From positions 372,001 through 436,000 of the forward strand of contig LODT01000025.1 of the NCBI GenBank assembly GCA_001606155.1: 64,000 nt of DNA, in the 5' to 3' direction. This DNA is from Tieghemostelium lacteum. Lineage: Eukaryota; Evosea; Eumycetozoa; Dictyosteliales; Raperosteliaceae. Position 1 is the first letter of the stretch; every line of letters starts with the position of its first letter. The notes below the pieces were generated by a model, which saw nothing but the letters and a program-made list of their open reading frames with translations, was not told the origin of the DNA and ran no database searches. The position numbers and the translations under genes were made by a program. Positions 22,523 to 42,612 of this stretch are shown here, in pieces.

Positions 22523-25500
22523 ATGTCTGATAAAGATGTAAGTCTATTTTACAATAATAATTTAATTTATCAAAATATTACAAAAATCTAATTTTAAATT
22601 GATGTTTCTAGGGAGCAATTAATAATTGTTACACATTATATTTTAATGATGAGAGATTAACTCATACTCAACAGGGAAAGAAATTTCCAAATAATTATAT
22701 TAGAACTACAAAATATACATTGTTGACATTTGTACCAAAGAATTTATTTGAACAATTTAGAAGACTTTCAAATTTTTATTTTTTGTGTGTATTGATTATT
22801 CAATTGGTACCACAAATATCACCATTATTACCATTGACTAGTATTTTACCTTTATCATTTGTATTAATAATTACTGCAACTAAAGAGGCTTTGGAAGATT
22901 ATGTAAGTTATAAATATAAAATTTTTATTAATTAAAATACAAGTTTTATTAATATTGGTTAATATTGTTGAAAATTTCAGAGAAGATATCAAAGTGATAA
23001 GAAAAGTAATAAGGAGATATATAGTGTTGTAAAAGAAGGTAGTTTACAATCTATATACAGTCAAGATATTAAAGTTGGTGATATTATAAAGATTCCAAAT
23101 GGTCAACAGATACCATCAGATTTGGTACTATTGTCATCATCACATGAAAATGGACTTTGTTATGTAGAGACTTCTAATCTGGATGGTGAAACTAATCTTA
23201 AAGTTAGAAAATCTCTAACAGAGACTAACCAATATCAAACACCTCAAGAGATATCTCAGTTGCGTGGTTCTATAGTTTATGAGTCCCCCAATGAGAGATT
23301 GTACCGTTTCAATGGAAGAATGGTATTACAAGGTAATGACAGTAACATCTTCTCTATCAACCACACAATGTTTCTTCAAAGAGGTTCTCAATTGAGAAAC
23401 ACCAAGTTTATCTATGGAGTTTGTGTATATGCAGGTATCGATACTAAATTATTCCTCAATCAACAACCACCTCCATCCAAGTTCTCAACAGTTGAAAAAC
23501 TTTTAAATCAACTGATTCTCTTTGTCTTTCTATTCCAGATTATCATTTGTCTATTATGTGCAGTTGCATCGTCATACTATGATGTCCATGTCGCCTCTCT
23601 TATCATGTATCTCGGTGAGAGTCAATATGAAACTGCAACTTATGCAGTCAGAAATTTCTTTACCTACTTTATCCTCTTCAATACCATGATTCCCATATCA
23701 CTTTGGGTGACTTTGGAGATGGTTAAAGTCGGTCAAGCTAAATTCATGGAATGGGATAAAGACATGACTTCTATAGTCCCAGTCTACAACCCAACTACCG
23801 GTATTGAAAATGAAGTTGAAAAAGGGTGTCGTGCAAAGACCTCAAATCTCAACGAAGATCTTGGTCGTATCCAACACATTTTCAGTGACAAGACTGGTAC
23901 ACTAACTGAAAATATAATGAAATTCTGTAAATGTTCTATAGGAATGGATATCTATGATGAAAAGGAAAATCCTGGAAGTCTTGCTACAGCATTAGACACC
24001 AAACTCAATACACTATCTACTAAATACCAAGGTATTCAGTCTTTTCTAAGAGTACTATGTCTCTGTCATACTGTAGTCTCTGAAATTGAGGAATCTTCTG
24101 GAAATATAACATACCAATCACAGTCACCTGATGAGTTGGCACTTGTAAATACAGCTTCTAATAATGGATATGTGTTCCTTGATAGAAAGACAGACGAGAT
24201 TCTCGTTCGTGAAGGTGGTGTAAATGTAAGTTATCAGTTACTTGCTGTATTAGAGTTCTCAAGTGCACGTCGTAGAATGTCAGTTATAGTACGTACACCT
24301 GAAGGTACTATCAAGCTTCTTACCAAAGGTGCTGATATGGCAATTACATGTCGTCTAGCTCAAACGGAGACATCCAGAGACCGTAACTCTGTAAGAAACG
24401 AGACATTTAATTTCCTAAAAACATTCTCAAGAGATGGTCTAAGAACTTTAATGTTGGCAGAACGTGATCTCTCTCAAGAGGAATATGACGAATGGAAAGA
24501 ATCATTCTTCCAAGCTAATACCTCCATTGAGAATCGTGAGGAAAAAGTAGAAGCTGTATGTGAACTCATTGAAAAAGACCTAAATCTCATTGGTACCACT
24601 GCTATTGAAGATAAACTGCAAAATCAGGTACCAGAGACTATAAACTATTTCTTGAATGCTGGATTGCACATCTGGGTTCTAACAGGAGATAAACAAGAGA
24701 CTGCTGTAAATATTGGATACAGTTGTAGATTGTTTGATCCTAGTATGGAGTTGATCTTCCTCAATACAGAAACCTCTGAGGAATGTGGTCAGATTCTTGA
24801 TAGATATATTGCACTTTTACCACCCGAGACTGATATTCAAGATTTCTCTGGTGTACACAACGAGGGTATTAAAGGTGGACACGGTTTCCAGTCTAATCGA
24901 TCTGCTAATCCACTGGAATCTTTTAATCCTGCAACTTTGGTTTCAGGTTCAGCTGTAAAGGCACAAATCATTCAAGTACCTGAGATTATCATTCCAACAC
25001 TTTCCAATGAGTATGGTTTGGTTGTGGATGGCCATACACTTTCATTTGCATTACAAGATCATAAAGATAAGTTCCTTCGTTTGGGTAGAGCTTGTAAATC
25101 AGTTATATGCTGTAGAGTAACTCCATTGCAGAAAGCTTTGGTAGTACGTGTTGTAAAGGAAGCTGAAAAGAAGATTTCACTGGCTATTGGTGATGGTGCT
25201 AATGATGTGTCTATGATTCAAGAGTCTCATGTAGGAGTTGGTATCATTGGTAAAGAAGGTACTCAAGCTGCTAGAGCATCAGATTACTCTATACACCAAT
25301 TTGCACATCTCAAGAGACTACTTTGTGTACATGGTCGGTACAGTTATATACGTGTATCAGGACTTATTCAATACAGTTTCTACAAAAACATGTCATTTAC
25401 ACTATGTCTCTTATGGTACAGTTTCACCAACTGTTTCACAGGTCAAACCCTATTTGATTCATGGATTATCACATTTTACAATATTCTATTCACCAGTTTA

Positions 25501-26222
25501 CCACCATTCTTTTACGGTCTATTTGAGAAGGATGTAGATGAAGAATCTATCCTTGAGAACCCAATGCTCTACAAGAATCTACAAAAACGTGAAGTACTCT
25601 CAAAAAGATCATTCCTAATTTGGAATCTAGCAGGTCTATGGCACAGTTTAGTCATATTCTTTGGAACCAAATTCCTATTTTCCAATGATGTAATGGATGC
25701 ATCAGGACATACAGCAGGTATCTGGACACTTGGTACCATTGTAGCAACCACCTCCATCCTAACTGTAAATTTCCGTATGAGTATTGAAATCAAAACTTGG
25801 AATATTTTCAATCTATTTGGTATTTTAATATCCTTACTGGCATATTTCATAATGGTCATGTTGTACGCTTTCTTTTTACCATTAAATGCCAATATGTATG
25901 ATATATTTAGTAAGTATATTCACCCCACACTATTTAAATTAAAAAAAAAATCAAAAAAAAAAATAACAAATACTAATAATCAAATTTCTTGTATAATAAT
26001 ATAGCAATGGAATTACAAATAATTTCCTATCACTTGTTAATTTTAATATTGGTATTTGTTGCATTGATTCCAGATTTTATTGTAAAATACTACTCCAGAC
26101 AATATTATCCAAAAGATGTACAAATATTTAGAGAAAGAAAGAATATTAAAGAAATTCCAATGAAAGAATTTATAACAAGTGAAAATAGCACAAACTATCA
26201 AAGATCAATCCATCAAGCATAG
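22523..26222 (+). CDS. P4-type phospholipid-transporting ATPase (flippase)
   Basis: Four exons, 22523-22537, 22612-22902, 22981-25909 and 26005-26222, join in frame to 1150 residues. The order is P4-typical. The N-terminal block ([20 protein letters not shown]) is followed by membrane helices 1-2 and the actuator motif DGETNLK near residue 170. The PISLWVTLE helix 4 signature precedes the phosphorylation motif DKTGT with Asp405. Then come the nucleotide-binding region (KGADMAI), the hinge [12 protein letters not shown], and the C-terminal helices to about residue 1110. Such enzymes move aminophospholipids to the cytosolic leaflet of Golgi, endosomal or plasma membranes, usually with a CDC50 partner. 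All catalytic residues are present. The last short exon supplies the final membrane helix and a basic tail. Confidence 0.95.
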
Positions 26223-30147: not shown

Positions 30148-32145
30148 TTAGTGAAAAAGGTCTTCGCCATTTGCAATTACTCTAAACTGATACAATTCTT
30201 TTGAATAAAGAGTAAAGTACTTATAATCACTGGCAACAATAAGAATATAATTTTCAGGGAGTTGTTCTTGCAAAGGAATATTTCCTGCTGATAATCTAAA
30301 ATCCAATACTACCCATTGTTTAATTGGAAGATCAGCACCATATATACCTGTAGGTAAAAATCTTAACATATGCTCCTCGATTTGGATTCCATCACCTATA
30401 ATCTCTATGGCCCATTGGAGATCTGAGTTGATATAGAGATCAACCTCTCCAGTAGAACCAAAAAACTTTCCTACATTAGAAGAGATGTGTGGTAAGTTGA
30501 AATAATTTGATAAAGAGACGTAGAGTTCATTGTGCCAAAAGACTTCTAAAATTCTATTATTATTACCAACAGAAAGAGTGTGTTCAGCTCTAAAGAGACG
30601 AAAACGTTTGAGAGCTTCTATAAGTAATTTAGTAATTCCTTCCTTGTTTTCAGGTAGTCTACCCCAGAATGGTTCATAGATTTTTGTTTTCCTTTGGAAA
30701 AGATATATTTTATAATACCAAGGAGAAGGAAATTTGTATATATCTTTATCCCCTATTTTAATCAAGTATCCTCTTTTTATTAGTTTTGAGAGTGCTAAAT
30801 CATCTGAATTGACCGAATGAAAGTATTTGTAATCTATTACATGGTCAAGTATTCCTAATTCCTCTTTACTCAAGAGAAGATCACCATTAGAGTCGTGGAT
30901 TTTTGGACAAGAACGTGTATCCTTTATGGTATTAAAAAAATCTTGAGATTGAAGATATGCTACCAAATTCTTTTCATTTACACCAGAATCTTTATATTTA
31001 TGCTTAATTCTGTGCAATGTTTCATATATAATTCCAATATGGCCACCACTTCCTGCCCATATAATAGAGATAGCATACTCTGGTAATGGGAAATGCTTCA
31101 TTGCATACGCCTTACAGAGCCCATTGTACTCTGATAATTTTAAAAATAGGATTTGTGGGTCTTCATAGTGCAACGAAATAGGGGTGGCTAGTTGGCTTCC
31201 TGGTCTTTCACCATAACCAGCTAACATTAAAAAAGTAATTCTATGAGGAGCTGATTTGATTTTTGACCAAAAGAGATCGTAGATTGCTAGTGAAGGGTTA
31301 TAAAACGTCTGAACATTATCCAAAATAAAATGTACATCATTCGATTCAGCAAAATTAAACCATTCAGTGAATGTTCTACCAGTGTAGAATTTCCAAGAAT
31401 TTTGAAAATTTTCCACTCTGTCATATTGAAGCCAGATTAAACATACCCTTCTAATATATACCTTCTGCTTCGTGTTCTTTAGGTATTCATGGAAAATCTG
31501 TCCAAATGATGTCTTTCCGGTGAATGGTGGTGATCTAATTAGGGTGACTTTGTTAGTTTCGAGATGTTTTGAAACTTTCATGCAAAGTTCTTGTCTGAAA
31601 AGAGTAAGGGGTGATAGTAGATTATGAATGCCCTCATCTGTTATTGCTCTTGGAGAGATTTCACCATAAAAATCCTGAGGATTAATCAAACAATCTATTT
31701 ATATACATAAGTCAATTAGTACCATAATCCAATCCTTTATAAACACTGCCCTAGCAATTAATCTACATACCTATTGTGTGGTTGAGCAGGTGTTTAAATT
31801 TTATAAAGTTAATGTAAAAAATATATTAGTATAAATGAACAAAAGGTGTTTAGATTAGTAATAGGTGTTTAGTTACATACCAGTTCTAGTGGTTGGGTTG
31901 AACATTAAATATATTTCAAAAGCTGAATTAGCAGAAACTTGAATTTTTTTTAACTCTTTCTCTAAATTGTCTTTTTTTAGAACTAACCATCTCCCTTTAA
32001 TATTATTATCACGAATATGTTTAATATCAGATTCAGGTATTCCTATTACCTTACACCATTTTTGAACTGATTCATTGTTCCAATGTTCTTTTGGTATATC
32101 AATATCATTAAAACTTGTTGGTTGTGTATTATTATCTTTATTCAT
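30148..32145 (-). CDS. SAM domain + P-loop NTPase + REase nuclease, Crinkler/RHS type
   Basis: Two exons, 31881-32145 and 30148-31694 (intron 31695-31880), join in frame to 603 residues. Exon 1 encodes a SAM-like domain (about 17-80: WNNESVQKWCKVIG ... GRWLVLKKDNLEKELKK). Exon 2 carries a P-loop NTPase with Walker A RSPPFTGKTS (Lys149) and a Walker-B-like strand VHFILDNVQ near residue 210. A linker that looks like a winged helix follows. The C-terminal PD-(D/E)xK-type nuclease contains GEVDLYI, then WAIEIIGDG, EEHMLRF and WVVLDFR. The NTPase + nuclease pair is the core of Crinkler effectors and trypanosome RHS proteins. A usual Crinkler header is absent and SAM takes its place. The gene looks whole. 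Cellular role and targets are unknown. SAM suggests oligomerisation or docking. Confidence 0.8.
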
Positions 32146-32365: not shown

Positions 32366-34552
32366 TTAATCTGAATCATTTTCATTTTGTAGATATTCTT
32401 CTTCATCTGAAGTTTCTTCACCTTGTAAATAATCTTCATCATCCTCTTTCTCTTCTTTTATATCATTTAGCTCTTCATCTTGGTCATCATCTTCTAATGT
32501 ACCAGAAGATTCAAAGAGATTTGGTGTTTCCATAGATTCTCCATGATAGGAATCAGAAAGTTCTTGTAATTCTTTAGAGACTTGTTGATTACATTCTTGT
32601 AGAATTTTAATTAAACCTTTTGACATGGCCTTATTGGAGATTGAATCTGAGAAATAGGTAAGTGAATGACCTTTGTTACCTTGTCTACCAGTTCTACCAA
32701 CCCTATGAATATACTGTTCTAATGATGTTGGAAAATCATAATTCACAACAAACCGCAGATTATTAATATGTATACCTCTACCAAGAATATCAGTGGCTAC
32801 CAATATAGAAATTTTACCAGACTTGAATTCATTAACCATCTGATCTCTCTCAAACTGTTTCATATCACCATGAATTGAACCAGCTCTGATTTTAATCTTT
32901 TTCTCTGAATGGAGTAGTTTTTCAATTTGGTTCAATAGCGGTTTAACAAATTTAATTTGATTTACAAAAATCAAAATCAATGACTTGTTTCTCATGGCAG
33001 CTTCTTTTTCCATAATTGATTTTAAGAATGAAGAAAGATGTTTGAATCTCTCTGAATCCTTAATTACCTTTATAACCTGTTTAACATTTTTACTGACAAT
33101 TGCAGTGGATTCCTGGTTTACTGTACTGGATTTCACCCTAATTTTCATATGATCACTCTGATTTAACCATTTTTTGGCAGCTTCTTGCATTGGTTGTGGA
33201 AAAGTAGCACTAAACATGAGAGTTTGTCTATCAGGTCGAATTTGTTGAGAGATTTTGTGTAGTTGATCGCCGAAACCTAATTGTAACATTCTATCAGCTT
33301 CATCAAAAATCAACATAGTTACACTTCCCAAGAGACCAATAACTTCTTTAGAGTTATTAATCAAGTCAACTAATCTACCAGGAGTTGCAATGACAATTTC
33401 ATTGTGTTCCTGACCGAGAATTTCTTTTTGTTCCTGTGCATCTACACCACCGTAGACAGCCAATGAGTGTATATTGAATTTAGATCTCAATGGTTTACAA
33501 CTAGATTCAACTTGTTTAGCAAGTTCTCTAGTTGGAACTATAATTAAAACAACAGGACCTTGTTTTGAAATCTGACTGGTTGATTTCTTTTTTTTTAAAA
33601 GTTGTGTTTGACGATACTTTTGTTGTGCTAGAATATGTGGAATGGATGGAAGAAGATAACCCAGTGTCTTACCACTACCAGTTTGTGCAATAGTTAATAC
33701 GTCACTTCCAGTCATAATACAAGACCATGCCTGCGATTGTACTGGTGTTGGAGTGGTTATATCCGGATTCTTATTTTGGATAAATTGCAGATAATCTCTC
33801 ATGGATTCTGGTAAATCGTCATCTTCAAAATCCAATACAGGCCTTGGAACTTTTCTATTTGAACCAACACACAATTCAACTTTTGCCTTCAACTTTATTC
33901 TCATATTTCTATGATCGTCTTCAGTCAACTTTTGTAAACTATCTTTCCAAAATGACTTTTTAAAAGGCTGTAATAGTGCAAACTGAATTTTTCTAGCCTC
34001 CAATAACTTCTTTTCAATTGCCAATCTCTCTTTCTCTTTCTTACTCATTTTAGTTTTATTCTGTTGTTCTTGTTTCGATTTCTCATCTTCTTCATCTTCT
34101 TCATTTACTTGAGTGTTATCAATAAAATCATCTTTTGGAATTATATTAGAGCTCTTGTGTTTCTTCCTTAGTTGATATATTTGTTCATCATTTAAAATCT
34201 CTGTACTTGCTATATCAGATTGAGTGAATTCAAATACAGGTTCTTCTTCAAAATCACCATTTTCACCAAGAATATCAAAATTATCAAATTCATCACCACC
34301 TTCAAATACATGATCTCTTACACGTTTCAATGTATTTATCTCTGACTGTTTATACTCTTCCAATGTGATATCATCTACATCTTCCAATCTATTCTCATTA
34401 ATTTGTACTTTTCTCTTTTTAATCACTACTTTTCTTTCTTTTTTAGCATTCTGTAATTCTTTTAGTGGATCTACTGGTGTCCTTGCTACAATTGTTTTCT
34501 TTTTATTATTTCCTTTCCCACTCTTCCCAATTACTTTTTTTTTACTACTCAT
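32366..34552 (-). CDS. DEAD-box ATP-dependent RNA helicase
   Basis: This is an intronless 728-residue protein. The first 230 residues are Lys-rich then acidic, with a coiled stretch. The helicase core runs about 250-650: Q-motif region TPTPVQSQAW, motif I AQTGSGKT, Ia PTRELA, Ib TPGR, II DEAD, III SAT, then a second RecA domain with GDMKQFERD, motif V ATDILGRGIH and VI HRVGRTGRQG. The C terminus is acidic (EEKEDDEDYLQGEETSDEEE). Such proteins remodel RNA or RNPs using ATP. The basic N terminus and acidic tail are common in nucleolar ribosome-assembly helicases, but I cannot assign an orthologue confidently. Confidence 0.92.
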   Translation of the reverse strand: MSSKKKVIGKSGKGNNKKKTIVARTPVDPLKELQNAKKERKVVIKKRKVQINENRLEDVDDITLEEYKQSEINTLKRVRDHVFEGGDEFDNFDILGENGDFEEEPVFEFTQSDIASTEILNDEQIYQLRKKHKSSNIIPKDDFIDNTQVNEEDEEDEKSKQEQQNKTKMSKKEKERLAIEKKLLEARKIQFALLQPFKKSFWKDSLQKLTEDDHRNMRIKLKAKVELCVGSNRKVPRPVLDFEDDDLPESMRDYLQFIQNKNPDITTPTPVQSQAWSCIMTGSDVLTIAQTGSGKTLGYLLPSIPHILAQQKYRQTQLLKKKKSTSQISKQGPVVLIIVPTRELAKQVESSCKPLRSKFNIHSLAVYGGVDAQEQKEILGQEHNEIVIATPGRLVDLINNSKEVIGLLGSVTMLIFDEADRMLQLGFGDQLHKISQQIRPDRQTLMFSATFPQPMQEAAKKWLNQSDHMKIRVKSSTVNQESTAIVSKNVKQVIKVIKDSERFKHLSSFLKSIMEKEAAMRNKSLILIFVNQIKFVKPLLNQIEKLLHSEKKIKIRAGSIHGDMKQFERDQMVNEFKSGKISILVATDILGRGIHINNLRFVVNYDFPTSLEQYIHRVGRTGRQGNKGHSLTYFSDSISNKAMSKGLIKILQECNQQVSKELQELSDSYHGESMETPNLFESSGTLEDDDQDEELNDIKEEKEDDEDYLQGEETSDEEEYLQNENDSD

Positions 34553-34847
34553 ATTTACAAATGTTTCGGGAATATTTAAAAAAAATTAAATAAATAAAAA
34601 TAATTTTCACACAAAAAAGACAAATTCTAAAACTGGAATTAAAGTAAACAGTAACAATGCTAAGAAGTTACAAATCTGACCAAATAAAAGCAGATTGAGT
34701 GTGTAGGTTATAGTTCATTAACAAAAACCACTTTATTGTTGATATTAATGTATAACCAAGGAATTTCCAGTTATTATCAAATCAATATATTATCTTGATA
34801 TTGTACAACCCAATAAAATAGTTGGTTTTTGTACAAATATATTTGAA

Positions 34848-37557: not shown

Positions 37558-40500
37558 TTAGTTATTATAGTGACCCCACTTTGATAAGGCTTCTTTTAAT
37601 GTTGGTAAAGTTATTGGTTTTGATACAAAATCATCCATACCAGCGTCTAGACAATCTTGAATAAATGAAGAACCAGCAGATAAGGCAACTATATTCATAC
37701 GCTTCCAACCATTTTCTCGTTCTTTACTACGTATACAACGTGTAGTTTGGAAACCATCAAGTATTGGCATTTGACAATCCATTAATACAATGTGGAAGCA
37801 TCGTTCACCTGTAATCTCTTTCAAAGCCTCTTTTCCATTTTCAGCAATAATCACTTGCCAAGAAAGTTTCTTTAGTAGTTGAATAAGAACTTTTCTATTG
37901 ATTTCATTGTCTTCAACTAACAATGCTCTTCTTGGTATATTTGATGGTGTTGTTATTGGTGTTAGATTATTATTATTATTACTCTGTAAAGATGATGACA
38001 ATGGAGGTGGTGTTTGATCTGATTTCTGTTGATGACTTATAAATGGTGGTGATTGTAATAGTGAAAATTGTGAAATGTTATTTATACCTGAGTTACTTGA
38101 AGTTGTTGTAGTCGTTGTTGTAGTATGTTGATCATGTTGTAACTGCTGTGGAGTATTTGGTTGTGCTGTATCTTTTAGCATTGGTGTCATTGTAGATGGG
38201 GTGTTATATGGACATTCTCCAAATGTAGATGCCAATTCCAAAGGTGGAATTATATTAGGAATTGGAGATGATATAGTTAAATATGTTGGTGTAATTATAC
38301 CTCCTCCACCAGTACCACTATTACTACTATGTAAATTCGGAGTCATACGATTGCTACTAGATCTTCCACCAGTTGGTGGGTTCTGAAGTAGTTCTTGTTC
38401 TAGTTTATACTGTTGGTCTTTATGAATTGATCTAATGAGTATTGGGATTAGTTTATCAGTGAGAGCAGGTCTTCTCATCCATTCTACTTGTGAATAGTTT
38501 GAAGGGTTAAATGCACTGTTAATCTGTTTGGATAAATTGAATTTTGTAGGTGTCATTATAATCAATGGGAACTGAAGACACTGACAGTTGTTTGCCAGTT
38601 TGATATCAGAGAGAATCTCGTAATCTACTAGAATAATGTCAATATCAATATCATTATTCATACGTTGTATATTGACTAAACTTGGGTTATTTGGATCTTG
38701 TAAATCATTGTTTCTTTTGGGTAATTTAATAACTAATCCTAACCATTCAAATTGTTCTTTTAGTACTTTTTCAGTTACCTTATCACGAACGATAATCAAA
38801 CAACGTTTTTGAATAAGAATCTCAGGACCAATATTTCCAATGACCAAACTATTCTTTCTCTCACCTGGTAGTGACTGAGTTGATTTTGTAACTGGTGATC
38901 TTGTTAACATTGTCTTTGGTAGACTTGATGGTGATATCAAATTCAATTGAGATGGTGAACTGGAAGGTAATAAAAATGGTATATAACATTTAAAAGAAGA
39001 TCCTTTTCCAACTATAGAACTAACATGAATAGTTCCACCCATAACATCTTCAATAAGTCTTTTGGTGATACTCAATCCCAAACCAGTTCCACCGTATTTT
39101 CTAGTAGTGCTATTATCAGCTTGAGAGAATGGTTCGAAAATAGCTTCAAACAGACTTTGTGGTATACCAATACCAGTGTCCTCTACTGTAATGCAAAGAT
39201 TGATTGTTTCAGTATGATGATCAGGTGGATTACCATCAACTAATGAAATATCAACAAGTACATGTCCACTACTTGTAAACTTTATAGCATTACTAACCAA
39301 ATTCAATAGAACCTGACGACATCTCATAGCATCACCAATGACAATCTTTGGAACATTTGGACTTACACGTAGCAACAAATCTACATCTTCATTAGCAGCA
39401 ACTGAAAGCATATGAATTACAGCTTGAACAGTTTCAACAATACTAAATGGCAAAGACTCCATTTTAAGTTGTTTAGATTCCAGTTTACTGTAATCCAGAA
39501 TATCATTGATAATAGTCAACAATGCCTGTGAGGATTTCTGGATAGTCTGCACATAATCCTTTTGCTCTTCATTGAGATTGGTCTCTAATAACAAATCACT
39601 AACACCAATGACACCAGATAGAGGTGTTCTAACTTCATGACTTACAGTAGCCACAAATGCTGATTTTGCCTTATTAGCCTCTTCAGCAGCCTCCTTTTCC
39701 AAAATTAGTCTCTGAATGTCTTTTCGAGATGTTACATCTCTCAGTGTACCAGCCATACGTAAACTATGATCTTTACTGTTATTTTCATTACTAACTACTT
39801 TACCTCTCATTATAATGTACAAATAGCCACCCAGTTTCTTTCTGATTCTACATTCAACTTCGAGAATCGATGTCTCTCTTGAAATGGTTTTCTTAATCTC
39901 CGAAACAAACCGTTCTTTATCCTCGGGATGAATGAGTTCAGAGAGATACTTCATATTCCAAACAGCCAGCTGATGTGTATTATTCGATGCCGAAGGTGAA
40001 GACAATATCTCTTCTAGAATAATAGGACTATACAAGTCCTCACTATTTTCCAAAGTCAGGTTAGTCTGTGACGATGATTTAAGTTCCTCACAAAGTGATC
40101 TAGATTGGTAATGGTTCTCTTTAGACTTCAAAATCTGGAACCAACGACTTGAGATATGCAACTCACCAGTATTCACTTTCCAATCCCACACCGCATCTTC
40201 AGAGCCCTCCATTGCCAGTTCCAAACGTTCTTGAGACTCTGCAAGAGCACGTTCGGCAAGTTTTCTATTAAATATCTCTTTATGCAAATCAGCGTTTGTT
40301 AGAGACAATTTTAGATTATGTTTAGTATTGATAGCAAACCAAATAGCTACAAGACCAGAGAGTAACAAACATACACCACCAATGGCATACGGATAAAATG
40401 TGTAATGCTTACTGACAAATTCAGGTGAAGGCGTCAGAACAACCATCCAATTACGTCCACCTACATTCATTGTATTGTAATAGATAATCTCAGAGACCTT

Positions 40501-42612
40501 TTCCAATTGTGGTCCATTTTTGATATCGGTAGGGAACGAAGACTCCTTCATGTCATCGGGTACATGTGAAGGACGGTAATATATAAGTTCACCCAATGCC
40601 TGTGAATCCAAATCAAAGACATACAAATCCAAAGCATCTTCCTCAGTCAGACGATTAAGAGATGCAGCTACCATACGACTAATAAAAAAACGACAACTTG
40701 CATAGCCAATGATATTCTTTCGTCGATCTTCGACAGTCGACAATACACTACCATAGGTATAGACAGCTTGAAAAATAAACAAGAGTCCAGCATGTGAGGT
40801 GTTCTTTGGAACATTTGCATTCTTGTTGATATAGGGTGATGGATATGAAACCTTCTCACCTGTGTCCCTCGTCTTATTAAGACTTGCTATTCTCCATTCA
40901 TCCGATATGATATTGTAACCTCTGAAATGGTCGTTTGAAATCTCAGGTTCTGAGAATAGTAAAGGGTAGTACTCTGCAGCAGGTTTAGCAGGTCTTTTGA
41001 CAACTTTTGTAGGGTCATTAGGGTCAACTTCATTCTCACGTATATCTACATTATAAAGGTCTTCCCAACCTTTTCTACCAGAATCCAAGACCCTCGGTGC
41101 CCACATTATACCTTCCAAACCCTCACTATTCGTAGACCACAAATTAGAAAACGGTAGAAATTGATCTTCAGAAGTCGTTGGAAACACACTAAGTAGCAAT
41201 GCAAGTGTCTGAGAGACATAGAGACGATTGTTAAATTCAATTCTCAACATTGTAAAACGGTCTCTTGCAACTCTTGCAAAATCACCACTCACTGAATTTC
41301 CTTCAGCGTATCTAAGTACCAGTATAGCCAACACCGAAACCGAAGCGCCAACAATAAATAAACCAATAATAATAGCCCATGCTCTTCTACCCATTCCCAA
41401 TAGAGAACAGTACTCTGAGAATGGATCTAAATTTCTTTTAGATGGTAAATCAGGTGACTTAAAACTAACCATTGCATTACTATTATAATTGTACTGTGGA
41501 AATTTCTTTTTCTTCTTTCTGTGATGGTAGTGGTGTTTGTCATTGTATCTTCCATGAGGATGATGAAGTGTTGTCAATGACTTTATATATTCCATACCAT
41601 TAAGTCCACCTCCACCATATGAACCATGTTCCATTTTATCTTGATTTTCATTCTGTATACCACCTCCACCAGTAGCATCCATACCATTACCATTACCACC
41701 ATTTGACAAACTATCAAAAGAGCCAATATTATTAATTCTATGATCCTCCAATAACTTTGATGAATAAATTCTTCTCTGAAATGATTGATTCTTTTTAATT
41801 TTATTCTCTTTTATAATCTCTTCACTTATTGCCTGTATACCATTATTATGATGTCCTTGTTGATGTTGTTTATTATGTAATTGATTTTTTTGACTATTAC
41901 TCAAATTAGTTTCATAAATAGATAATCTTTTTCTAAAAGAATCATTATAATCATTAGTGGTATTTCCAATTAATGTACCACTGCTACTATTACCAACACT
42001 AATACTTGTAGTGGCGTCATTATTATTATTATTATCTAAATTATTATTACTATTCTCAGAAGAGTTATTAAGTGCATTTAATCTCTCTTGTTGATTTTTT
42101 TGTTGTTGAATAATTTCATTTATACTTGGCGATAGTATACTATTTTCACCACCAGTAGTTAATGAATTATTATGATTAGTATTACTATTACCTATATTCT
42201 TTATACATGGTATTGAAGGTTGTTGTAGTTGCTGTTGCTGGTCATCTTCTGCTATTTTATTAATACTCATATTATTACTACTACTGCTTTTTGTAATAGT
42301 ATTACTACTACTACTATTATTATTATTACTGATGTTATTATTATTATCGAGAGAAGATGAAAGTGATGAAGATGATGCAGTTGTTGAACTACTACTGCTA
42401 CTATTTGAAGATGATGAACTGGTATCACCTACAACTATACTCTTTGATCTTTTTAAATTTAAACTTTCATCATTCTTTTCAAGTTTAGGTTCACCCTATA
42501 TATGGATAAATGTTAGTGGTCCATAGTTGACAAGTTGTAAAAAAAAAAAATTAAATGAAAAAATAAATGAACATACAAATAAGAATTCTATTGGTATACT
42601 GGTAGTTGTCAT
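37558..42612 (-). CDS. hybrid histidine kinase with CHASE sensor domain
   Basis: A 12-codon first exon (42577-42612, MTTTSIPIEFLF) joins exon 2 (37558-42495) across an 81-base intron, giving 1657 residues. After a 370-residue low-complexity N terminus come membrane helix 1 (about 375-400) and an extracellular CHASE domain (about 405-660, with EGIMWAPRV near its start). Helix 2 (about 715-740), a PAS/PAC region and HisKA with phospho-acceptor His965 (FVATVSHEVRTPLSG) follow. Then come HATPase_c with NLVSNAIKF and GTGLGL, a weak receiver-like region (about 1235-1365) and a C-terminal receiver with Asp1585 (LMDCQMP). CHASE domains sense small ligands such as cytokinins in plants. In Dictyostelium such kinases feed the RdeA-RegA phosphorelay controlling cAMP. 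I cannot say which Dhk orthologue this is. Confidence 0.93.

Follow-up and report, generated by a model that had tools for sequence, protein, structure and literature searches.

A probable SAM head shared by many effector bodies in a Crinkler/RHS-like gene family of Tieghemostelium lacteum

Crinkler-like proteins have mostly been studied as weapons of pathogens. According to the available text of PMC5289972, the headers of CR proteins are mostly ubiquitin-like and unrelated alpha-helical headers occur, bodies made of an NTPase and a restriction endonuclease are common, the motif HVLVXXP marks the junction between header and body, and members are reported in free-living eukaryotes. In Phytophthora sojae, the accessible part of PMC3726527 describes a 250-base N-terminal fragment common to otherwise different CRN genes. 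The free-living amoeba Tieghemostelium lacteum, in which we found about 40 loci with a common head and visible junctions, offers a place to ask what the home role of Crinkler-like proteins is.

The predicted design of the T. lacteum family is of the Crinkler/RHS type, with a different head and a different junction. It shares with CR effectors (Zhang et al. 2016, via the available text of PMC5289972) a conserved header, variable C-termini and a body that combines an NTPase with a putative nuclease region; on the other hand, its head is probably a SAM domain, its junction is an intron whereas the CR junction is a coding motif, and no Crinkler or RHS model matches the T. lacteum protein. As in the oomycete CRN proteins (PMC5289972, PMC3726527, in the parts available), a common N-terminal part is followed by differing remainders, with recombination at a fixed junction; unlike in those proteins, neither the LXLFLAK/ubiquitin-like header nor HVLVXXP was found in T. 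lacteum, and there is no evidence of secretion. Among fungal NLRs, SAM_Ste50p and Crinkler domains likewise stand as N-terminal modules of NTPase proteins; the accessible text of that study (PMC9815663) describes the N-termini, with no mention there of a nuclease-like C-terminus or of intron shuffling. Bacterial polymorphic toxins, as described in the available part of PMC3482391, also have a constant front and many exchangeable C-terminal effectors, but they are prokaryotic and exported, whereas the T. lacteum genes form a eukaryotic family with introns. A conserved header with variable C-terminal effector regions and a P-loop NTPase in the body, as in CR proteins in the wide sense, are both found here; strictly defined Crinklers (CRN) carry the PF20147 header, to which no match was obtained, so the family falls outside them.

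The gene from which the analysis started lies in a window of 64,000 nucleotides of contig LODT01000025.1 (positions 372,001 to 436,000), where 30148-32145 is one gene on the minus strand, with its ATG at 32145. Exon 1 (31881..32145) encodes the head, residues 1-88; a phase-1 GT..AG intron (31695..31880) occupies the zone where head and body appear to recombine in the family; exon 2 (30148..31694, including the stop) encodes the body, residues 89-603. The spliced product of 603 amino acids has no internal stops and is identical over its whole length to the NCBI model DLAC_05111 (hypothetical protein, Tieghemostelium lacteum), in agreement with the single, open and normally spliced gene of the initial annotation, the splice being a predicted one. 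The motifs quoted there are all present, with the Walker lysine at residue 149, and they are more than chance matches, since paralogues of about 30% identity and the metagenomic protein P0013 also show Walker A, Walker B and, at the C-terminus, the pattern E..W..E / GxxDxY / E / G / H. No Pfam model matched the window protein above its cut-off, searches of NCBIfam and PADLOC found nothing, and a hydrophobic N-terminus is absent.

The constant head of about 88 residues is probably a SAM domain, with its core at about residues 20-83 (31897-32088). SAM domains are usually intracellular interaction modules. The window head scored 17.7 bits against Pfam SAM_Ste50p, below the curated cut-off of 21, and the same model matched 8 of the 28 heads, at best with an E value of 7.1e-4; non-SAM models gave weak matches to fewer heads (Ish1 to 3/28, DUF995 to 2/28). 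A low-confidence structure model of the head (pLDDT 56) retrieved SAM entries as the top Foldseek matches, none with E < 0.5, and the head profile, set against eight T. lacteum SAM domains, scored 15.5, the best of 200 column shuffles reaching 15.4. The SAM assignment first proposed is thus probable, with no match above cut-off. The accompanying idea that SAM takes the place of a ubiquitin-like header fits the CR design, and relatives of the body lie behind other candidate heads, described below, for which Pfam gave no useful match, ubiquitin-like or otherwise.

In the body, Walker A spans residues 143-151 (SPPFTGKTS, 31507..31533, minus strand), with Ser143 in place of the first glycine in the window copy, and Walker B spans residues 209-215 (VHFILDN, 31315..31335, minus strand). 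Both Lys149 of Walker A and the Walker B aspartate are kept in all ten aligned rows. Moreover, P0013, which the body profile matches at 3.7e-32, passes Pfam AAA at 1.3e-6, and among solved structures the body profile finds Pch2 at 5.4e-5; the P-loop NTPase of the initial annotation is supported by these observations. The window copy reads DN (D214-N215) in Walker B, where 8/10 rows have DE, Asn215 thus standing in place of Glu; DN is otherwise present only in P0003. This replacement may impair its ATPase: the window copy may bind ATP yet hydrolyse it poorly, and its ATPase activity is doubtful.

The nuclease-like C-terminal region, on the minus strand, has as its first acidic motif E472..W475..E478 (30520..30546), followed by the stretch from G504 to G524 (30388..30450), which contains GEVDLYI with Asp507 and WAIEIIGDG with Glu519, and by EEHMLRF at residues 528-534 (30358..30378). 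This pattern presumably resembles the motifs published for CR proteins. The E..W..E, GxxDxY, E, G and H positions are kept in nearly all rows that reach the C-terminus (L051 is cut short), with Glu519 replaced by Asp in P0002 and P0003. Profile comparison aligned this body, kind A, with body kind F at 80% probability; the alignment covers 417 columns and brings the C-terminal motifs of the two into line. The body F NTPase passes Pfam AAA_35 (P0012, 1.1e-10). The C-terminus may have the restriction-endonuclease fold of CR proteins, as had been suggested: the motif pattern and the match between A and F, two bodies of the same genome, argue for it, whereas Pfam gave no nuclease match to the window protein and the body profile found no nuclease among solved structures. 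The full-length structure model (pLDDT 40, from 4 sequences) was uninformative on the fold. Neither PF20147, the ubiquitin-like Crinkler header, nor PF07999, the RHSP model of trypanosome RHS proteins, matched the window protein at E up to 10, and both found nothing across the genome, in searches run without a positive control.

Beyond what the initial annotation noted, the head of the window gene appears to be a portable cassette, common to about 40 loci of T. lacteum with differing effector bodies. Head sequence was found at 41 places in the genome, and a body could be seen behind 36 of them (34 loci, plus L036's second head and the P0002 gene); at the other five, only short pieces of the head were matched. 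At least 11 kinds of body (A to K), a RING finger and some unassigned bodies follow the head, the kinds having been assigned by hand from tblastn and translations, two of them with a single member. This number counts the labels A to K, since profile comparison merges some of them into wider groups (B-E at 99.6, I-J at 94.9, F-H at 93.3, E-G at 92.4 and A-F at 80.0% probability). A P-loop is visible by eye in 9 of the 11 kinds, and several end with a nuclease-like motif. In L032 the place of the NTPase behind the head is taken, in the predicted product, by a RING-H2 finger (positions 1350-1709 in head orientation; PF13639, E 2.9e-13), so the head could be an adaptor of general use. Broken or shortened copies exist (L026, L034, L036 and L058), a sign that some members may be in decay.

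Several comparisons indicate that heads and bodies are close to unlinked. Among the 25 loci with a partner of the same body kind, the nearest head belonged to another kind in 22; with ties counted, it was of the same kind in 3/25, against 1.69 +/- 1.39 for shuffled labels, a value of 3 being reached in 25% of 5000 label shuffles. Head DNA identity was nearly equal within kinds (0.824, 24 pairs) and between kinds (0.810, 537 pairs). Between copies with different bodies, similarity stops in the intron region 3' of the head: 377 of the 537 different-kind pairs match across the head end, and these matches reach a median of 69 bases beyond it, 235 at the most, while 20 of the 24 same-kind pairs do so, 13 of these for at least 549 bases. 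The window copy itself and L025, which has body B, are 93.9% identical from -16 to +355, with no other match in 6 kb; with L060 it shares the body, at 86.4% from +407 on, and a head match of 111 bases at that sensitivity. The sequence comparison thus indicates that pairs of head and body have been remade many times, by recombination in the intron zone downstream of exon 1, where a new pair stays in frame.

The intron behind exon 1 can be recognised in loci with different kinds of body. Of 34 loci, 23 show its core, 16 the beginning of a second intron and 10 a micro-exon; none of these elements turned up in 34 control stretches taken downstream. The single intron of the window gene holds the end of intron 1 and the start of intron 2; it corresponds to both introns of the other copies, with the micro-exon missing between them. 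At mid-intron (31695-31880), the old intron 1 end abuts the start of intron 2, as AG followed by GTATGTAGATT, and this zero-length exon might be used for recursive splicing. In the intron zone of L063, one intron start appears to follow directly on another, as though a second copy of the intron had been added behind the first.

One such junction can be located at L027. Compared in 30-base windows, and indels aside, L027 equals L028 (body B) between +200 and about +305; from about +305 on it equals L063 (body I), which bears a different head, so that the switch point falls inside intron 1. Over longer stretches, L027 and L028 are 91-93% identical upstream, from -436 and through the head at 91%, and the L027 body matches L063 at 95.3% downstream. 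These identities count aligned L027 bases only: intron 1 of L028 is longer by 11 bases, and L063 is missing 6 bases close to the micro-exon and further ones beyond about +440, a stretch in which the L027 windows drop to 0.17-0.73. Mis-assembly is a possible source of this junction.

The bodies appear to be under constraint, albeit a loose one. In all eight pairs computed, dN/dS was below 1: it was 0.42-0.68 among close A bodies (0.57-0.68 for the window copy against its relatives), while two older pairs gave 0.33-0.35 and another two 0.84 and 0.90. Taking these data together, we put at about 0.7 the probability that T. lacteum has a family in which a probable SAM head is set on at least 11 kinds of effector body and re-paired with them in the intron zone, the proposed product being an intracellular, NTP-gated nuclease. 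New pairs would arise by crossing over or gene conversion behind the head exon. The protein would work inside the cell. Its head could form polymers or dock on a single shared partner, and the nuclease, gated by the NTP that the body binds, would once triggered cut the nucleic acid of an intruder or the cell's own. The initial annotation had suggested a possible role in defence, competition or genome surveillance. CRISPR editing has been reported across dictyostelids, according to the available text of PMC13046832, so knock-outs may be feasible. A more ambitious reading, which we consider rather improbable, is that of a combinatorial arsenal, in which the SAM head would address a common activating scaffold and be dealt to nuclease and other bodies by continuing recombination in the intron zone; if this were true, strains would carry different sets, and could recognise or kill one another or parasites. 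The family could also help to tell whether headers serve for docking or for delivery, and how quickly bodies are exchanged.

The main rival to an intracellular, docked nuclease is that the protein is exported as a weapon and passed to other amoebae, bacteria or fungi, the head being a delivery signal, as proposed for oomycete Crinkler headers. The lack of a hydrophobic N-terminus and the usually intracellular role of SAM domains speak against it, and we know of no host for the free-living T. lacteum. The modular layout is nevertheless the same as in CRN effectors, and in the accessible text of PMC5289972 the CR header regions are re-read as devoid of a true signal peptide, so that its absence here is compatible with export; on balance, we regard export as unlikely.

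The history of the pairs could also be read differently from the repeated re-pairing favoured here. Heads might have been joined to their bodies long ago and later homogenised between genes by ectopic gene conversion, since matches between copies often begin just before the ATG and end in the intron zone, like conversion tracts. This is possible, and we hold it only tentatively: L027, which is L028-like from -436 and has an L063-like body, is better explained by a crossover or a long tract, and body kinds that are unrelated by profile comparison would still require separate fusions. A spread of the head cassette, or of whole genes, as transposable units with no function for the cell would explain why copies lie on many contigs with little common flank, and the available part of PMC5289972 ties CR bodies to transposons; however, head and introns travel together, which argues against retrocopies, dN/dS is below 1 in every pair, and a flank comparison, a general one rather than a search for terminal repeats, found no shared element ends, so that we consider mobile-element parts very unlikely. 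As for the window gene alone, the DN of its Walker B, shared with P0003 against DE in 8/10 rows, and the existence of broken siblings could mean that it is a decaying copy on its way to a pseudogene. Its frame, open across 603 codons, the retained nuclease-like residues and a dN/dS of 0.57-0.68 against its relatives make this improbable.

Relatives of body A, at about 30% identity, also sit behind other candidate heads in the same genome. At least six other candidate first exons, at L045-L049 and L054, were chosen by eye from reading frames, and L044 and L050-L053 are body relatives with no named candidate head. Three of the other heads had initially been read as ubiquitin-like; this reading was dropped, and the Pfam search of the six gave no useful match. 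Upstream of the body-A relative at L047, a frame at 1-561 resembles, by eye, the terminal RNase H part of a retrotransposon polyprotein.

In protein searches, all 12 matches to the full-length protein and all 11 to the head were T. lacteum proteins, and the body profile found four proteins, three of T. lacteum and one metagenomic. The metagenomic one, P0013, is 559 amino acids long, carries the NTPase and the C-terminal motifs described above and has only a short N-terminal stretch ahead of the NTPase. Since a hit in these searches requires 5-residue words in common, and the body profile missed the paralogues of about 30% identity that formed part of its own query, relatives may exist in other dictyostelids even though the family was seen only in T. 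lacteum. No relative was found by the body profile in viral contigs or prokaryote genome contigs, each scanned with two short patterns. In the accessible text of the Crinkler literature that touches on Dictyostelium or the sterile alpha motif, we found no report of this T. lacteum family, and the accessible parts of PMC4931340, PMC8535579 and PMC5282741 do not mention Crinkler.

The gene with the probable SAM head is surrounded by apparently ordinary genes, as judged by eye: a P4-ATPase (22972-26004) and a cytochrome P450 (27388-28991) on one side, and a DEAD-box helicase (32366-34585) and a hybrid histidine kinase (37558-42495) on the other.
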